Of a stretch of 58,034 nucleotides of DNA, positions 47,445-57,366 are shown piece after piece. A model generated the notes under the pieces. The model did no database searches. It was not told the origin of the DNA and saw nothing but the letters and a program-made list of their open reading frames with translations. Both the position numbers and the translations under genes were made by a program. This DNA is from Nitrosopumilaceae archaeon (GTDB lineage: Archaea; Thermoproteota; Nitrososphaeria; Nitrososphaerales; Nitrosopumilaceae), in NCBI GenBank assembly GCA_011523285.1, contig WTHC01000051.1, forward strand, positions 1 to 58,034, given 5' to 3'. The first letter of the stretch is position 1; every line of letters starts with the position of its first letter.

Positions 47445-48275
47445 TCATTTTCTTATATTTGCATCTATTGCTATTTGATAATACTTGGGGCCTATAGCAC
47501 GTACTATATTTGAGTGCAATACTGTTGATTTAATTTTGATTGTATTAAAATAATGTTTTGTTGCACGTTCAAGCGCATTTTTTTTATCAGCGTGAATATG
47601 GCAATAATAATGAATAATTCCATTGTTTTTTGTACCTAAAACAGCAGAATCAAGAAAATTATCTGTTCGTTCAGGCAGCAACATTAATGTTCTATCTGCA
47701 GTTTCATCTAATTCATTAATTAAATTTGACGCATCACCACACATAGGAATCACATTTCCTTTCATTTTATTTAATTCTAAATTTTTTTTGCATAATCGTA
47801 TCGCATCAGGATTAATGTCCATATTATAAATATTGCACTTTTTCTTTTTGGCTATTAATATTGAAAACATACCTATGCCACCAAACATATTGATTATATT
47901 TTCTCCATCTTTCACTAAATTCGCGATCCTATTTCTTTCTGTGGATAACCTTGGTGAAAAAAATACTTTTCTAACATCTACATTGAATCTACACCCGTAT
48001 TCTTTATATTCTGTCTCAGTTGTATCAATACCTGCTAATAGTTCCAATTCTCTTATTCTGAAATCTCCTTTCACCACAGATGACTGTCGATATATTGATT
48101 TTGCTTTTTTAATTTTATCTAGAAGAACTTCTCCTATAATTTTTTTACTGTTGGATAATTCGTCCGGTATTCTAATTATCACAATTTCTCCAATTTGATC
48201 AAATGATGAAAATAAATTGTTAATTTCATTTGCTTGTAAAATATTTATTAGATGTCTTTTAAGAAATTTAGTCAA
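47445..48275 (-). CDS. Trm5-like SAM-dependent tRNA methyltransferase
   Basis: YGCRFNVDVRKVFFSPRLSTERNRIANLVKDGENIINMFGGIGMFSILIAKKKKCNIYNMDINPDAI. Confidence 0.88.
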   Translation of the reverse strand: MTKFLKRHLINILQANEINNLFSSFDQIGEIVIIRIPDELSNSKKIIGEVLLDKIKKAKSIYRQSSVVKGDFRIRELELLAGIDTTETEYKEYGCRFNVDVRKVFFSPRLSTERNRIANLVKDGENIINMFGGIGMFSILIAKKKKCNIYNMDINPDAIRLCKKNLELNKMKGNVIPMCGDASNLINELDETADRTLMLLPERTDNFLDSAVLGTKNNGIIHYYCHIHADKKNALERATKHYFNTIKIKSTVLHSNIVRAIGPKYYQIAIDANIRK

Positions 48276-50056
48276 TTCATGTAATATAAATTACCATTTT
48301 CTTTTTGTTGTTTGTCTAATCGACTATTGGATTTATTAACTCTTGGCCTTTTGCTATTTTCGTCTCTTCTGAATGAAATATCTAACAATTTTAAGAATTT
48401 GTTCATGGCGCGAACTTTTGATAGTGGTGCTATTGCATGTCCAGAAACATTAGGAGTTCCATCAAAAATAATTATTGAATCTGAAATTAAATCTATTAAT
48501 TGTAAATCATGATCTATAATAACGGCTGCTTTTCCATGATCTTTTATAAATTTTTGAAGGAATTTTGATATTGCGATCCTGTCTTCTACATCTAAAAATG
48601 CAGATGGTTCATCTAATGCAAAAAGATCTACCTTTTGTAATAATGTGGCAGCGATAGCTACTTTCTGTAATTCTCCACCAGACAAATTTTTTATTTGTTT
48701 ATTATATAATTTTTTTATTGTTAATGCATCTATGATTTGTTGTTCTTCGTCGCCATCATTAATATTATTATTAATTTTTTCTAGCAGTGTTAAAACCTCT
48801 GTATCTGTATCATTTGAGAGATATTGTGGTTTGTACGCAATTGATATTTTCTTCGTAGTTTCTCCTTGATCTGGTTCTATATTCCCCGTAATCATTTTTA
48901 GCATGGTGGTTTTACCGAGCGCATTTGCACCTATTACACCAATTAGTTCTCCACGTCTGATATCGCCTTTTTCTATATTGAGTGTGAATTTCTTATAATT
49001 CTTAATTAGGTTAGAATATTTCATTAATATTTCATCACTATGAAATTCATTGATGCTTAATATGGGATCAAAAGTAAATTTTTTGTCACGAAATCTCACA
49101 TTTTCATTATGCAAATATCCATCTAAAAAAACATTGATTCCAACTTTAGTTGATAATATGCCAGATACTATACCATAAGATCCAGGGTTTCCATATATGA
49201 CATTTATATAATCACTGATATAATCCAATAAAGTAACATCATGTTCTACTATCATCACAGTTTTTCCAGATTTAGCTAAATTTCTAATTATTCTTGACAC
49301 TTTTGTGCGTTGATATATATCATTATACGAAGACGGTTCGTCAAAAAAGTACAAATCTGCATTTTTAGATATAGAAGTTGCTATAACTAAACGCTGTAAT
49401 TCTCCACCGCTTAGCTCCCCTACATTCATCTCGATTGATCTTTTTAAATTTAATTCATTGATTAAATTGTTACTAATACCGCGTTCATCATATTTTTCAA
49501 TTAATTCTTTTCCAGTTCCATTAAATGTTTCAAGTAAATTGTATACTTGTTGTGGTTTGATAGAAACTTTAATTTGGTTTTCATTTATTTTTTCAAAATA
49601 AGATTTAAGTTCAGTACCTTTATAATATTTTATTATATTTTGCCAATATGCCTCTTTTTCATTATAATTACCAATATTCGGAATTAATTTACCTGATAAT
49701 ATATTAATAACAGTACTTTTTCCCATGCCATTTCTACCTAACAGCCCTGTCACAGCTCCTTTTTTTAATACTGGTAATTTGTATAACCTGAATGAGTTTT
49801 GATCATACTGATGAATTTTATGATGTGATAACTCTGATGCTAAATTTACAATAGTTATTGCATTAAATGGACATACTTTCACACATATGCCACACCCATT
49901 GCATAAATTTTCATCAATCTGAGCTTTTTTTATATTATTATTTAATGTAATACATTCTAAACCTGATTTGTTCACTGGACAATATTTTATACATTCTAAA
50001 CCACATTTCTTAGGCTGACATAAATCCTTATCTAACACTGCTACTCGATGCGTCAT
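48272..50056 (-). CDS. ABCE1/Rli1 ribosome-recycling ATPase
   Basis: N-terminal Fe-S motifs (CQPKKCGLECIKYCP, CNGCGICVKVCPFNAI) plus two ABC ATPase domains. Confidence 0.96.
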   Translation of the reverse strand: MTHRVAVLDKDLCQPKKCGLECIKYCPVNKSGLECITLNNNIKKAQIDENLCNGCGICVKVCPFNAITIVNLASELSHHKIHQYDQNSFRLYKLPVLKKGAVTGLLGRNGMGKSTVINILSGKLIPNIGNYNEKEAYWQNIIKYYKGTELKSYFEKINENQIKVSIKPQQVYNLLETFNGTGKELIEKYDERGISNNLINELNLKRSIEMNVGELSGGELQRLVIATSISKNADLYFFDEPSSYNDIYQRTKVSRIIRNLAKSGKTVMIVEHDVTLLDYISDYINVIYGNPGSYGIVSGILSTKVGINVFLDGYLHNENVRFRDKKFTFDPILSINEFHSDEILMKYSNLIKNYKKFTLNIEKGDIRRGELIGVIGANALGKTTMLKMITGNIEPDQGETTKKISIAYKPQYLSNDTDTEVLTLLEKINNNINDGDEEQQIIDALTIKKLYNKQIKNLSGGELQKVAIAATLLQKVDLFALDEPSAFLDVEDRIAISKFLQKFIKDHGKAAVIIDHDLQLIDLISDSIIIFDGTPNVSGHAIAPLSKVRAMNKFLKLLDISFRRDENSKRPRVNKSNSRLDKQQKENGNLYYMN

Positions 50057-50134
50057 AAATTATTATTACGATTCCTATTTTATAATTCTTGAATTAATTA
50101 GTTACATTAATAGATTAGATATGTTATATCCCAT

Positions 50135-50253
50135 TAAGCCGGTCATAGCAATGGGGTGCGACCCAGTCCCATTCCGAACCTGGAAGTCAAACCCATTGTC
50201 GCTATTGTGTTACTTAGGTGCGCGAGCTCTTGGAAAGCAATAGTGCTGGCATT
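50135..50253 (+). rRNA. rrf: 5S ribosomal RNA (stand-alone)
   Basis: GCCGGTCATAGC...GGGTGCGACCCAGTCCCATTCCGAACCTGGAAGTCAAACCC...GCTGGC; canonical CCATTCCGAACCTGGAAGTC core; ends approximate. Confidence 0.92.
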
Positions 50254-50339
50254 TTTTAAAAATATTTGTTGGTATTTATTATATTGATTCAATATGTTCA
50301 ATAAACCTATAAATATCAAAAATATTGATTGAATATATT

Positions 50340-51794
50340 TTAATTATTTGTTAGATAATCGATAGTCAATCTAACTCCAAACCCTGTAGCTCCTTTCGAG
50401 TTATATGATCTGAATTTAGTAGAAGGTTGTATCCATGATGTTCCTGCAATATCCACATGAATCCAAGGTGTATTTTTATTTATGGAATGAAACAAAAAAG
50501 CTGCTGCAGTTATAGTTCCAGCTGCGCCTTTAGGACCTGTATTTTTAATATCAGCAACATCTGATTTTATCATATCCATGTAGTCATTATTAAGTGGAAG
50601 TTGCCATATCTCTTCATTGCATCTTTTAGAAGATTCTTTAAATTTAGTAGCAAAATCATCATTATTTGTGGTGAATCCTGCTACATTTGTACCCAATGCA
50701 GTTATACACGCTCCTGTTAAAGTTGCAAAATCAATTATTGCTTTCGGAGAATATTTAGTTTCTCCATATGATATAGCATCAGACAAAATTAACCTACCTT
50801 CTGCATCTGTGTTAATAATTTCTACCATTTTTTCATTATACATTTTAATTATATCTCCAGGTCTATACGAATTACCTCCGGGCATATTTTCTACAGATGG
50901 AATTATGCCAACTAAACTTATTGGTAATTTCAATTCAGATACAGCTTTCATAATACCCAAAACGACACAGCCTCCACATTTATCAAATTTCATCTCATCC
51001 AATTTATCACTAGGTTTCAACGATATTCCGCCAGTATCAAACGTAACTGCTTTTCCAACTACAACTATTGGACGATCATTTTTCTTTATATTATATTCTA
51101 ACACAATCAATCTTGGCTCATTTTTACTACCCATGCCTACAGATATTATACCATTAAATTTTTTTTTCTCTAAATAATCTTTTGTAAGAACACGGCATTT
51201 GAGAGTACTCGTAGCTATTGATTTGGCAAATTTAGCCATTTTTGCTGGAGCGCAGTCATTAGGAGGTAAATTAGCAATATCTCTAGCAAATATTACACCA
51301 TTATTTATTTTCTGTGTTTTGATTATTATGTCGTTGATTTTTTTGTCATGAATTAATATGCATAATATTGGAGTTATTTTTTGATTAATTTTGTATTTGT
51401 CAAAATTATACATAGATAGCTCTGCACCTTCAACAATAGATCTAGCAAATTCTTGAGACTCTTTAGGAAGTACTATTGTGTATTCAGGCAATTTCATCTT
51501 TTGTATTTCTCGTGTAATCTTGCCTGTGGACTCTCTTATCTTTTCTGAATTCAAGTTTTTTCTTAATCCTAGTCCAATCAATATAACTTTCTCAGCTAGA
51601 ATTAGACCATGAGTCTCAATAATCCTTATTTCTCCTTCTTTCCATTCGGTATTTGATATTATTTGTTTGATTGTATTTCCAACACGTCCATGTATTTCAT
51701 TAATCCAATAAGGTTTCTCATTCTCATAAATAAAATGGCATAGTGCTTTAGTATTTTTATAGAGATGGTTTTTAACTTCAGTTACTATTTTCAT
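50340..51794 (-). CDS. pepA: Leucyl aminopeptidase (M17)
   Basis: VVVGKAVTFDTGGISLKPSDKLDEMKFDKCGG, NTDAEGRLILSDAISYGE. Confidence 0.94.
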   Translation of the reverse strand: MKIVTEVKNHLYKNTKALCHFIYENEKPYWINEIHGRVGNTIKQIISNTEWKEGEIRIIETHGLILAEKVILIGLGLRKNLNSEKIRESTGKITREIQKMKLPEYTIVLPKESQEFARSIVEGAELSMYNFDKYKINQKITPILCILIHDKKINDIIIKTQKINNGVIFARDIANLPPNDCAPAKMAKFAKSIATSTLKCRVLTKDYLEKKKFNGIISVGMGSKNEPRLIVLEYNIKKNDRPIVVVGKAVTFDTGGISLKPSDKLDEMKFDKCGGCVVLGIMKAVSELKLPISLVGIIPSVENMPGGNSYRPGDIIKMYNEKMVEIINTDAEGRLILSDAISYGETKYSPKAIIDFATLTGACITALGTNVAGFTTNNDDFATKFKESSKRCNEEIWQLPLNNDYMDMIKSDVADIKNTGPKGAAGTITAAAFLFHSINKNTPWIHVDIAGTSWIQPSTKFRSYNSKGATGFGVRLTIDYLTNN

Positions 51795-51940
51795 ATGTGA
51801 CGTATTAATATTTTATTGAGATATTATTTGTTGTGTTAAATCTATCAAAATCACTAAAAATATAAATTAATTTTTAATGTGTAATTATTAAAATAATTAG
51901 ATTATCATAAAGAATTAATATAATTTATTGATGTAAACCA

Positions 51941-51958
51941 TTATTAGTAAACTAATAA
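51941..51958. promoter_or_regulatory. 18-bp inverted repeat upstream of transketolase operon
   Basis: TTATTAGT-AA-ACTAATAA, perfect 8-bp arms, in the ~260-bp intergenic region. Confidence 0.4.
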
Positions 51959-52053
51959 ACTCTGTATAAACTTATTTTATAAATTTATGTTCTTTATTTT
52001 GCTACTTAACTAATCTTCAGTATCTTTTTATTTCATTTTAAAATTGAAAAATA

Positions 52054-53703
52054 GTGATGAAAAACTATTATTCAATCAAAAAAACAGCCTTGAAAGTACG
52101 TAAATTAATTATAGATTGTATTTCTGATGCTGGCTCTGGTCATCCTGGAGGATCATTATCTATGGTTGAAATTCTTGGATGTTTATTTTATAATCACATT
52201 AAATATAACCCTAAGAATCCTGGGTGGAATAAGCGAGACAAATTAATCTTGTCAAAAGGCCATGCATCTCCAGGACTTTTTTCATATTTAGCAATGATGG
52301 GATATTTTGAAATTGATAAGCTTAGTACATTTCGTAAATTTGGAAGTATGTTGCAAGGGCATCCTAATCTACAATGTCCAGGCGTTGAATTTTGTGGAGG
52401 CTCACTAGGAATTGGACTATCGTTTTCAATTGGTGATGCATTAGCTGCGAGAATAGATAACTCTTCTCGTCGTATTTATACCATTATTGGTGATGGGGAG
52501 TCTGACGAAGGACAAATATGGGAAGCTGCTATGTCCGCAGCTAAATATGGTATTGATAATTTGACAGTGATACTGGATAGAAATTATGTACAACAAGATT
52601 CTCATACTGAAGATATAATGCCATTAGATGTTATCGCTGAAAATACCAATACTGAAAATAGCATTTACACAATTAAAAATAAGTGGAAATCGTTCGGATG
52701 GAATGTGATTGATATAGACGGACATAAAATAGAACAAATAGATTATGCTATAAGGGAATCTAAAAAAATCAAAAATAAACCGTCTATAATAATAGCTAAT
52801 ACTGTGAAAGGCAAAGGAATTGATCATATGGAACATAATCCAAATTGGCATGGACAAGCTCCTCAACGTGAGTTTATACCTCTTATTGATACTGAATTAA
52901 ATTCACAATTCATGATAGCCCCTTCTATTATTGCTGGGTATTCTAGCGATCTACAGAATAAAATCAAATTATGTGAACATGCTAAAGCAGATTACATACA
53001 TTTAGATGTCATGGACGGTATTTTTGTTAATAACAAAACATTTGATTTTAAAAAAATAAAAGAATTACGTAATGTTACAAATTTACCATTTGATGTACAT
53101 TTGATGATCTCAAACCCATTAAAATACATCATGAAATACATAGATGCTGGGAGTGATATAATTAGCGTGCATGTGGAAGCTTGCAATGAATCATCTTTTG
53201 GGGAGATTCATGATATTTTACAAAATCGTGGCATGGGAATAGGCTTAGCAATTAATCCAGACACTAAATTACCTGAATGGTCTTATAATTTTCTCACTAG
53301 TCTTGATCAACTAATAGTAATGTCAGTGCAACCTGGAAAATCAGGACAAAAATACATCGAAACCACTCATGCTAAAACACAATCATTACTTCATATACTA
53401 CATAAATACAAATTTGAAGGTTACATAGAAGCAGATGGTGGTGTTTGTCAAACAAATATAGGTCAATGTTTTATTGATGGGGCACGAATATTTGTAGGTG
53501 GTAATGCTATTGTAGGACAATCTAATGTACAAAATGCAATCACTGAATTCAGACACACAATTTTGTATACCATCAAAAAATTACTTATATCACAAGCTAA
53601 TAAAATAGGCGGAAGTAAATTCATTGAGAAATGGATTAATTTACATAACAAAGAAAAATCTAGTATGATTAATAATATTGCGACTGATTTAGGGTATATG
53701 TAA
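52054..53703 (+). CDS. Fusion: transketolase N-terminal (TPP) subunit + ribulose-phosphate 3-epimerase
   Basis: TK: SGHPGGSLSMVEILG, SKGHASPGLFSYLAMMG, GDGESDEGQIWEAAMSAAKYGIDNLTVILDRN; RPE from ~aa 287: APSIIAG, YIHLDVMDGIFVNN, FDVHLMISNP, MSVQPGKSGQKYI, EADGGV. Confidence 0.93.
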   Translation: MMKNYYSIKKTALKVRKLIIDCISDAGSGHPGGSLSMVEILGCLFYNHIKYNPKNPGWNKRDKLILSKGHASPGLFSYLAMMGYFEIDKLSTFRKFGSMLQGHPNLQCPGVEFCGGSLGIGLSFSIGDALAARIDNSSRRIYTIIGDGESDEGQIWEAAMSAAKYGIDNLTVILDRNYVQQDSHTEDIMPLDVIAENTNTENSIYTIKNKWKSFGWNVIDIDGHKIEQIDYAIRESKKIKNKPSIIIANTVKGKGIDHMEHNPNWHGQAPQREFIPLIDTELNSQFMIAPSIIAGYSSDLQNKIKLCEHAKADYIHLDVMDGIFVNNKTFDFKKIKELRNVTNLPFDVHLMISNPLKYIMKYIDAGSDIISVHVEACNESSFGEIHDILQNRGMGIGLAINPDTKLPEWSYNFLTSLDQLIVMSVQPGKSGQKYIETTHAKTQSLLHILHKYKFEGYIEADGGVCQTNIGQCFIDGARIFVGGNAIVGQSNVQNAITEFRHTILYTIKKLLISQANKIGGSKFIEKWINLHNKEKSSMINNIATDLGYM

Positions 53704-53704
53704 C

Positions 53705-54667
53705 ATGGAATCCAATTTAACAGACATGAGAACAGTATATGGTAAAACATTAATCGAATTGGGAAAATCTAATCACAGAATAGTTGTTATTGGCGCAGAC
53801 ACAACAAACTCATTAAAAATATCTCAGTTTGGAAAAATATTTAAAAATCGTTTTTTTAACGTTGGAATTGCAGAAGCTAATTTAGTTTCAATTGCTGCTG
53901 GCCTAGCCAATGCCGGCAAAATTGTTTTCGCCGGCACATATGCAATATTCGTTCCTGGGAGATGTGTAGATCAAATTAGAAATGCAATCGCATATCCTTC
54001 ACGATGTAACCAAAAAGGATTAAATGTAAAGCTGGTAGTTTCTCACGGAGGTATTTCTGTTGGTGCAGACGGTGGATCTCATCAACAATTGGAGGATATA
54101 GCAATAATGAGAACAATTCCAAATATGAAAGTCCTTATACCTGCAGACTCCGTTTCAGTTTCTGAACTCACTCGTATAATGTCTGAAAAGTATGGGCCTT
54201 TTTACATGAGAATGGCTAGACCAAAAACACATACGATACATCATACGTCGCAAAAATTTTTACTAGGCAAAGGAATTATTGTAAACGATGGTTCTGATTG
54301 TACTATAGCTGCCTGTGGAATAACTGTTAAAATGGCACTCGACGCTGCTAGATTGTTAAAAAAAGATGGAATTTCTTGTCAAGTTATAGATATGTTTTCA
54401 ATCAAACCTCTTGATAATGATATATTGGAAAAGTCTGCTCGTAAAACTGGATTTATAATCACATGTGAAGAACATAATGTTATTGCTGGTTTTGGTTCTG
54501 CAGTATGTGAAACAATTTCTAATACGTATCCAGTTCCTATAAAAAGAATTGGTATAAATGATAGTTTTGGAGAATCTGCACGAGATTCTGAAATGACATT
54601 ATTATTTAAAAAACATAAATTAACTCCTGAAGATATAGCAAATAATGTTAGGGAGATAAGAAGATGA
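53705..54667 (+). CDS. Transketolase C-terminal subunit
   Basis: DMRTVYGKTLIELG, FFNVGIAEANLVSIAAGLANAGKIVFAGTYAIFVPGRCVDQIRNAIAYP, VSHGGISVGADGGSHQQLEDIAIMRTIPNMKVLIPAD. Confidence 0.94.
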   Translation: MESNLTDMRTVYGKTLIELGKSNHRIVVIGADTTNSLKISQFGKIFKNRFFNVGIAEANLVSIAAGLANAGKIVFAGTYAIFVPGRCVDQIRNAIAYPSRCNQKGLNVKLVVSHGGISVGADGGSHQQLEDIAIMRTIPNMKVLIPADSVSVSELTRIMSEKYGPFYMRMARPKTHTIHHTSQKFLLGKGIIVNDGSDCTIAACGITVKMALDAARLLKKDGISCQVIDMFSIKPLDNDILEKSARKTGFIITCEEHNVIAGFGSAVCETISNTYPVPIKRIGINDSFGESARDSEMTLLFKKHKLTPEDIANNVREIRR

Positions 54668-55308
54668 AAATATTTTTAGATACCGCGAATATAAAATCCA
54701 TTAAATTTTACAATGATATGGGATTAATAGACGGCGTGACAACAAACCCATCATTACTAGCGAAAGAAAAAGACAATCCTCACAAAATTATGAAATCTAT
54801 ATCTAATATGATGGATAAAGGTGATGTTAGTCTTGAAGTAATAGGCACTACTTCATCTGAAATGATCAAAGAAGGACGTCAGCTAAAACAATACGGTGAT
54901 AATGTGGTTGTAAAATGTCCAATGACTGCGGATGGACTTATTGCATGTAAAAAACTAACTAGTGAAAATATACCAGTTAACATAACTTTGATTTTTTCAT
55001 CTAACCAAGCCATACTAGCAGCTAAATCTGGAGCAAAATACATAAGTCCATTCATAGGACGTTTGGATGATATTGGAAATGACGGTATTAATATTATAGG
55101 TGAAATTAAACAAATTTTTCAAAACTATGATTATAATACACAGATACTTGTGGCTAGTGTCAGACATCCAATGCATGTAATACAATCTGCTAAAATTGGT
55201 GCCGATGCAATTACAATGCCTCCAAAAATTCTAGATAAAATGATTCAACATAATCTTACCACCATTGGATTGAATAACTTTTTATCTGATTGGAAAAAAA
55301 TTAAATAA
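54664..55308 (+). CDS. Transaldolase / fructose-6-phosphate aldolase-like (TalC type)
   Basis: KIFLDTANIKSIKFYNDMGLIDGVTTNPSLLAKE, NVVVKCPMTADGLIACKKL, ISPFIGRLDDIG. Confidence 0.93.
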   Translation: MKIFLDTANIKSIKFYNDMGLIDGVTTNPSLLAKEKDNPHKIMKSISNMMDKGDVSLEVIGTTSSEMIKEGRQLKQYGDNVVVKCPMTADGLIACKKLTSENIPVNITLIFSSNQAILAAKSGAKYISPFIGRLDDIGNDGINIIGEIKQIFQNYDYNTQILVASVRHPMHVIQSAKIGADAITMPPKILDKMIQHNLTTIGLNNFLSDWKKIK

Positions 55309-55908: not shown

Positions 55909-56093
55909 TTATAATCTTATAATTAAACTTTATGTGTACATAATAACCTTTGTATATTGAAACTAATGATTATTAATATTTAAATTACATATCTTGATCT
56001 CCAATACCACATATTTGATCCAGATTCTAATTCTGTAATTTTATTATGAATTATATTTGATCTACCGCTATTGATTTCAATTATATTTTCCTA

Positions 56094-57366
56094 ATTTGCT
56101 GGTTTTTGAATCTGATTATGAGTAAGTCTTTCTATAAACTCATTTTTAGTAAGACCAAATAGTTTATTCTTCTTAATATCTTTTATTGTTATGTATTTAA
56201 TTTTATTTTTATCACAATTTATAAGATATTCTCCACTTTGATGTGCAGGAAATATTTTAATATGTTCTGGTAAATTCAGAATTTTGTTGTGTAATGTATG
56301 GTATAATTTATCTGCTAATATAATTGAATTCTCATGTAGACCCGGTCTGCCTACACCATTAAAAGATATAACATCGCCAGAAAATATATATTCCATATCT
56401 ATAATTAAACACAAACTTCCAATTGTATGACATGGGGTATGAATTATTTTTATTTCTTTGTTGCCTATATTTAATTTGGTATTTTCATTAATGTGATTTG
56501 CATCGAAACTATATTTTTCATATTCGCTAACATGTAATTTTGAATTAGTAATATGGTGCTAATTATCTGGCAGCTGAAATATGATCTGCATGTTGATGAG
56601 TATCTACCACGCCCGTAATTTTTAATTTTTTTACTTTAATCAAATCTACATAATATGAAATAGGATATAAAGAATCAATAATCATAGCTTCGTCTCCAGA
56701 ACAAAATATGTATGATAAGCATCCGTTACCAATTTTCTCAATTCTGATTATTCGTAATTCATTGGTAACAAGCATTTCTTCGTAATTTAAAATTTTATTC
56801 CATTCGGACATTCCACCTATTAATGAAGAAGATTTCATATTGAATTTAGCAAGTATGGCAGAAGCTATAGTTGATCTATTTCCACGACTACAAATGGTTA
56901 CTATTTTTTTATTTAATGGAATATCAGTTTGACGATTTGATAATTCTGATAGAGGTATATTAGTTGCATTTGAAATTTTTGAAGTGATAAATTCATTAGG
57001 TTCTCTCACATCTAATAAAAATAAATTCTGATCCTGCTTATCAATTTCACCAAGTCAAAATTAACAATAGTGGTATTTAGAACATTTTTTACCAATTTTT
57101 CCTTCCATTTTGTTATACCTCCAATTAAAAAATATGCTATATATCCATATTTTTTCATCATGCAGACCATTTCTCTTGATGTAGTTTCATCATAATCCAC
57201 AAATATTATAATAAAATTTAGTGATTTTGTTCAGTATAGTTATATCTGGAATTATATTCGCTGATCCTTCTATATGCCCATTATCATATTGATATTTTTG
57301 TCTAACATCTAAAATCAATCTATTGTCAACTTTGATATTGCTTGCTATAATTCCATCTTCTCTCAT
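56094..57366 (-). pseudogene. Degraded rhodanese-rhodanese / metallo-beta-lactamase-fold gene, at least three frame disruptions
   Basis: Pieces in different frames: DVRQKYQYDNGHIEGSANI; FVDYDETTSREMVCMMKKYGYIAYFLIGGITKWKEK; NLFLLDVREPNEF...VTICSRGNRSTIASAILAKFNMKSSSLIGGMSEWNK...GVVDTHQHADHISAAR*; HITNSKLHVS...IIHTPCHTIGSLCLIIDMEYIFSGDVI. Confidence 0.8.

Follow-up and report, generated by a model that had tools for sequence, protein, structure and literature searches.

The N-terminal half of transketolase is fused to ribulose-phosphate 3-epimerase (RPE, or Rpe) in 73 of 98 Thaumarchaeota assemblies, according to a 2024 mSystems paper that groups these proteins as cluster 341.1 (PMC11237513). 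The accessible text of that paper holds no function test of the Tkt_N–Rpe fusion, and discusses neither a precursor operon nor a C-terminal extension. It also names the Hps–Phi fusion of the archaeal ribulose monophosphate pathway, which has been experimentally validated as bifunctional. A split transketolase has been solved as PDB 6yak, an entry titled as an active alpha2beta2 heterotetramer. We found no function study of any Tkt_N–Rpe fusion in a literature search that covered few subscription journals. An initial annotation of the DNA analysed here took the combination of transketolase N and RPE for a specialised or previously unnoticed architecture. It is not unnoticed: the architecture is already known and was published independently.

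The gene described here lies in a window of 58,034 nucleotides, which is the whole stretch analysed, from a Nitrosopumilaceae archaeon. A single frame at 52054–53703 (+ strand) encodes 549 residues with no internal stop, starting at a listed GTG (52054) for which an ATG at 52057 is just as good. It joins a transketolase TPP-binding (PP) domain (about residues 1–283; 52054–52902, +) to an RPE (beta/alpha)8 barrel (residues 288–486; 52915–53511, +) and a C-terminal helical extension. Pfam searches with the fused protein matched Transketolase_N (PF00456) at residues 10–296 (E 5.7e-49) and Ribul_P_3_epim (PF00834) at residues 288–486 (E 2.9e-50); E-values near 1e-50 for both domains exclude chance. 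Among NCBIfam profiles, the N half matches transketolase NF004559 over positions 14–271 of 627. The RPE domain scores above the cut-off of subfamily NF004076 and, at 181.6, below the cut-off of 212.6 for the equivalog TIGR01163. The in-frame fusion proposed in the initial annotation is thus borne out, with PF00456 followed by PF00834 in one open frame.

The transketolase half stops short of the pyrimidine domain, and the C half is encoded by a separate neighbouring gene. This gene, tktC (53705–54667, +; 320 residues with pyrimidine-binding and C-terminal domains), starts 1 bp downstream of the fused gene. It matches the transketolase C half in NCBIfam, as had been claimed for this position, and the nearest solved relative of its product is the C chain of 6yaj/6yak (E 1.4e-88). 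A fructose-6-phosphate aldolase/transaldolase-like TalC/MipB gene, fsa (54664–55308, +; TIGR00875, above cut-off), overlaps tktC by 4 bp, an order of tktC and fsa that is kept in relatives. Its product carries out the next step in the same pathway as the fused enzyme. The two fused domains themselves belong to neighbouring steps, which upholds the earlier suggestion that they are linked by substrate.

On the other side of the operon, within 47445–55308, are genes for RLI/ABCE1 (48272–50056, −) and leucyl aminopeptidase (50340–51794, −); the arrangement of these two with the tktN-rpe/tktC/fsa operon is kept in many Nitrosopumilaceae loci. A rhodanese plus metallo-beta-lactamase-fold gene at 56091–57009 (−) looks broken. 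The rhodanese and the first part of the lactamase (56563–57009) end at a stop, and the remainder (56091 to about 56560) lies in another frame; either decay to a pseudogene in this reduced genome or a sequencing error may explain the break.

The fusion is widespread in one class of archaea. We found it in frame at 39 further loci, 30 from a scan of public genomes and nine from a second genome set, and all 39 are from Nitrososphaeria. The 30 loci of the public-genome scan include records named Nitrosopumilus, Nitrosopumilaceae, Cenarchaeum, Nitrososphaeraceae and Nitrososphaerales; the other 50 loci of that scan have a transketolase N gene without fused RPE. We also examined a class sample of 250 genomes, with families labelled f1, f2 and so on. 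Among the matches listed, RPE lies within a frame of 501–623 residues in 94 of 94 genomes of f1, the window's own family, and within a frame of 545–612 residues in 32 of 32 genomes of f3, so that it is fused in all 126. RPE frames among the matches listed are 222–294 residues long in f2 (5 genomes), f4 (13), f5 (1), f7 (3) and f12 (1). In a TktN tree, f1 groups with named Nitrosopumilaceae records and f3 with named Nitrososphaeraceae records, and it is on this grouping that the two family names rest. Elsewhere in the phylum we saw no fusion among 151 sampled genomes, and strong RPE matches outside the class are in frames of 226–284 residues, the size of a stand-alone enzyme.

An apparent fusion in Chloroflexi (locus L073) proved to be three separate genes. 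They lie in the order rpe-tktN-tktC (L073:2106–4548), so that these enzymes have become clustered independently there. Two small f7 genomes of the same taxonomic order, G173 (L093) and G186 (L094/L129), have a stand-alone RPE alongside a long transketolase frame that holds both halves (657 residues in L094/L129, 492 or more in L093), unlike their split-chain relatives. This long transketolase was possibly acquired from bacteria.

How did the fusion arise? Families f2, f5, f4 and f12 retain the arrangement tktN-rpe-tktC, with tktN and rpe unfused, and fsa comes after tktC wherever the sequence extends far enough (about 0.8 kb further along in G096, of f4). The rpe frame of f2 and f5 begins within the end of tktN, in a different frame, and the barrel starts at about the tktN stop codon. 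Because of this overlap a small indel would suffice to join the two genes, and we infer that such an indel was the joining step. Archaeal AmoA is encoded in the genomes of f2 and f5, as it is in the window's genome; AmoA is absent from the tested f4 and f12 genomes. Four AmoA-positive relatives (L082, L083, L086 and L088) have tktN and rpe as distinct genes that adjoin or overlap, which is likely the precursor state of the fusion.

Trees of both halves point to a single event. The fused rows all fall into one clade, both in the TktN tree (support 100/99) and in the RPE tree (99/95). In the RPE tree, f5 and f2, split lineages with AmoA, adjoin the fused clade (97/94); two of its outgroup branches are very long, and its placement of f12 and f16 is unsure. 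With one fused clade in each tree, horizontal or repeated fusion is ruled out, and neither the class sample nor the trees contain a reversal to split genes. The simplest reading of these sequences is one fusion, after the f2 and f5 ammonia oxidizers had branched off. Two neighbouring genes of an ancestral operon, tktN-rpe-tktC-fsa, would have been joined in the common ancestor of two ammonia-oxidizing families, Nitrosopumilaceae and Nitrososphaeraceae.

Both halves of the protein keep the residues expected of working enzymes. Across 21 aligned fused homologues, H316, D318, H349 and D461, which we take to be the metal-binding and catalytic positions of RPE, are invariant, as are S291, M320, M351 and M423, presumably their neighbours. 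Equally invariant are H30, H70, H103, D147, E149, N177 and H266, which we assume to be the TPP and substrate positions of transketolase. The phosphate loop differs. It reads QPGKSGQ in the window and NPGFGGQ in solved RPEs, with the F replaced; against the canonical PGF[GS]GQ, PGKSGQ keeps G, S and G. The position of the F is K in 15 of the 21 fused proteins, R in four, and S and F in one each. Of the RPE motifs put forward in the initial annotation, therefore, the metal residues stand, and QPGKSGQ turns out to be a non-canonical phosphate motif. Since most fused proteins have K or R where F is usual, their kinetics could differ.

The window's genome comprises 826,649 bases in 54 contigs and is 93.7% complete. 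A profile search of it returned a single match for RPE, and likewise for Tkt_N, for Transket_pyr and for RpiA, and we found no second RPE or transketolase elsewhere in this 93.7% complete assembly. The fused chain thus appears to be the sole source of both RPE and the transketolase N half. Because tktN, rpe and tktC are single-copy, both domains of the fused protein are probably functional.

An AlphaFold2 model of the fused chain alone, built from the 21 aligned sequences, has a mean pLDDT of 83.6 and a pTM of 0.84. By Foldseek, its first half matches the N chain of 6yak (TM by target 0.86, 44% identity) and its second half matches the RPE 2fli (TM by target 0.93). Alignment, AlphaFold and Foldseek together place the metal-binding His, Asp, His and Asp and the barrel fold in the RPE domain. 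The C-terminal extension (about residues 497–549; 53542–53700, +) consists, in model numbering, of the end of a long helix, 491–527, and a second helix, 532–544, at pLDDT about 88–96. These roughly 50 residues are common to the fused proteins, and in the alignment the stand-alone RPEs from sister lineages stop short of them. No Pfam family matched the extension, and a relative gave one insignificant match.

We conclude, with a probability of about 0.9, that the product of this gene is a split-transketolase N subunit together with what appears to be the cell's only RPE, fused once, in an operon of the non-oxidative pentose-phosphate pathway. The fused chain would assemble with the separate C subunit into a transketolase heterotetramer bearing RPE domains, and this complex, the FSA/transaldolase-like enzyme and RpiA would run the pathway. 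Transketolase would make xylulose-5-phosphate and the attached RPE, presumed catalytically active, would convert it to ribulose-5-phosphate, or the reverse. When the pathway runs towards pentoses, each cycle yields two xylulose-5-phosphates from transketolase for RPE to convert, so a fixed transketolase:RPE ratio is plausible. The best-supported mechanism is a bifunctional subunit that would supply the two activities in fixed proportion within a four-enzyme operon, and the benefit may lie in that 1:1 ratio.

Could two adjacent genes simply have been merged by an assembly or sequencing error? Small errors or decay do occur in this contig, as the frameshifted gene at 56091–57009 attests, but the same in-frame joint is present in the independent assemblies of the 39 other loci and in a genome of the same genus (G124, locus L106). 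Nor is there a stop or frameshift near 52880–52912, where the initial annotation had suggested looking for one; the frame is open. It had also pointed to relatives with two separate proteins as a sign against fusion. Near relatives are fused, so the fusion holds; distant relatives are indeed split, and because split genes there are the ancestral state they are no sign of error. We give an artefact virtually no credence: the relatives that share the joint refute it, and the transketolase N–RPE fusion is genuine. A purely structural or regulatory RPE domain that has lost catalysis is highly improbable. The altered loop PG[KR]SGQ and the added helices would fit such a loss, but none of the metal and catalytic residues varies among the fused homologues, and this genome, which has RpiA and transketolase, yielded no other RPE.

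A further possibility is channelling, in which xylulose-5-phosphate would pass directly from one active site of the fused enzyme to the other, between RPE and transketolase. The two domains have this metabolite in common, the fusion is strictly retained across two families, and the pTM of the model extends over the whole fused chain. However, the transketolase active site also requires the separate C subunit, whereas the model covers the fused chain alone, and operon fusions are often retained merely for co-expression or stoichiometry. We consider channelling unlikely, and regard as decidedly speculative its extension to a scaffold in ammonia-oxidizing archaea, in which the clade-specific helices and altered loop would serve channelling between transketolase and RPE, and perhaps FSA/transaldolase. 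A bifunctional subunit that supplies both activities in fixed ratio remains our preferred reading.

Judged from its sequence, the fusion is real, conserved, already described and functional-looking. It is a hallmark of two entire families of ammonia-oxidizing archaea, organisms abundant worldwide, and indicates how they likely make pentoses. It is also a clean example of an operon becoming a fused enzyme, with the unfused pair persisting in sister lineages, some of them AmoA-positive, and in a genome reduced to 0.83 Mb it has survived as the predicted only copy of both activities. Our own additions are small: a likely precursor operon, still unfused, in relatives that have AmoA, and the C-terminal helices limited to fused proteins.

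Among known systems, the nearest is the Thaumarchaeota Tkt_N–Rpe of cluster 341.1, which, as far as the accessible text of PMC11237513 describes it, has the same domains, order, lineage and split C subunit. The window's protein has Tkt_N then RPE in one chain in a Nitrososphaeria host, with no substantial difference from that description; it is one more member, from a 0.83-Mb genome. The closest solved relatives of its transketolase halves are those of the split-chain enzyme of Carboxydothermus hydrogenoformans (6yaj, 6yak), whose N and C halves are likewise separate chains but whose N chain, unlike that of the window, has no attached RPE. The stand-alone RPEs 2fli, 1rpx and 3ovr (PF00834) share the barrel fold (TM 0.89–0.93) and active-site residues of the window's RPE, which differs in being joined to transketolase N, in the K/R of its phosphate loop and in its extra C-terminal residues. 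Hps–Phi is, like the window's protein, an archaeal fusion of consecutive sugar-phosphate enzymes, but the enzymes are different, and bifunctionality has been validated for Hps–Phi whereas the window's protein is known from sequence.
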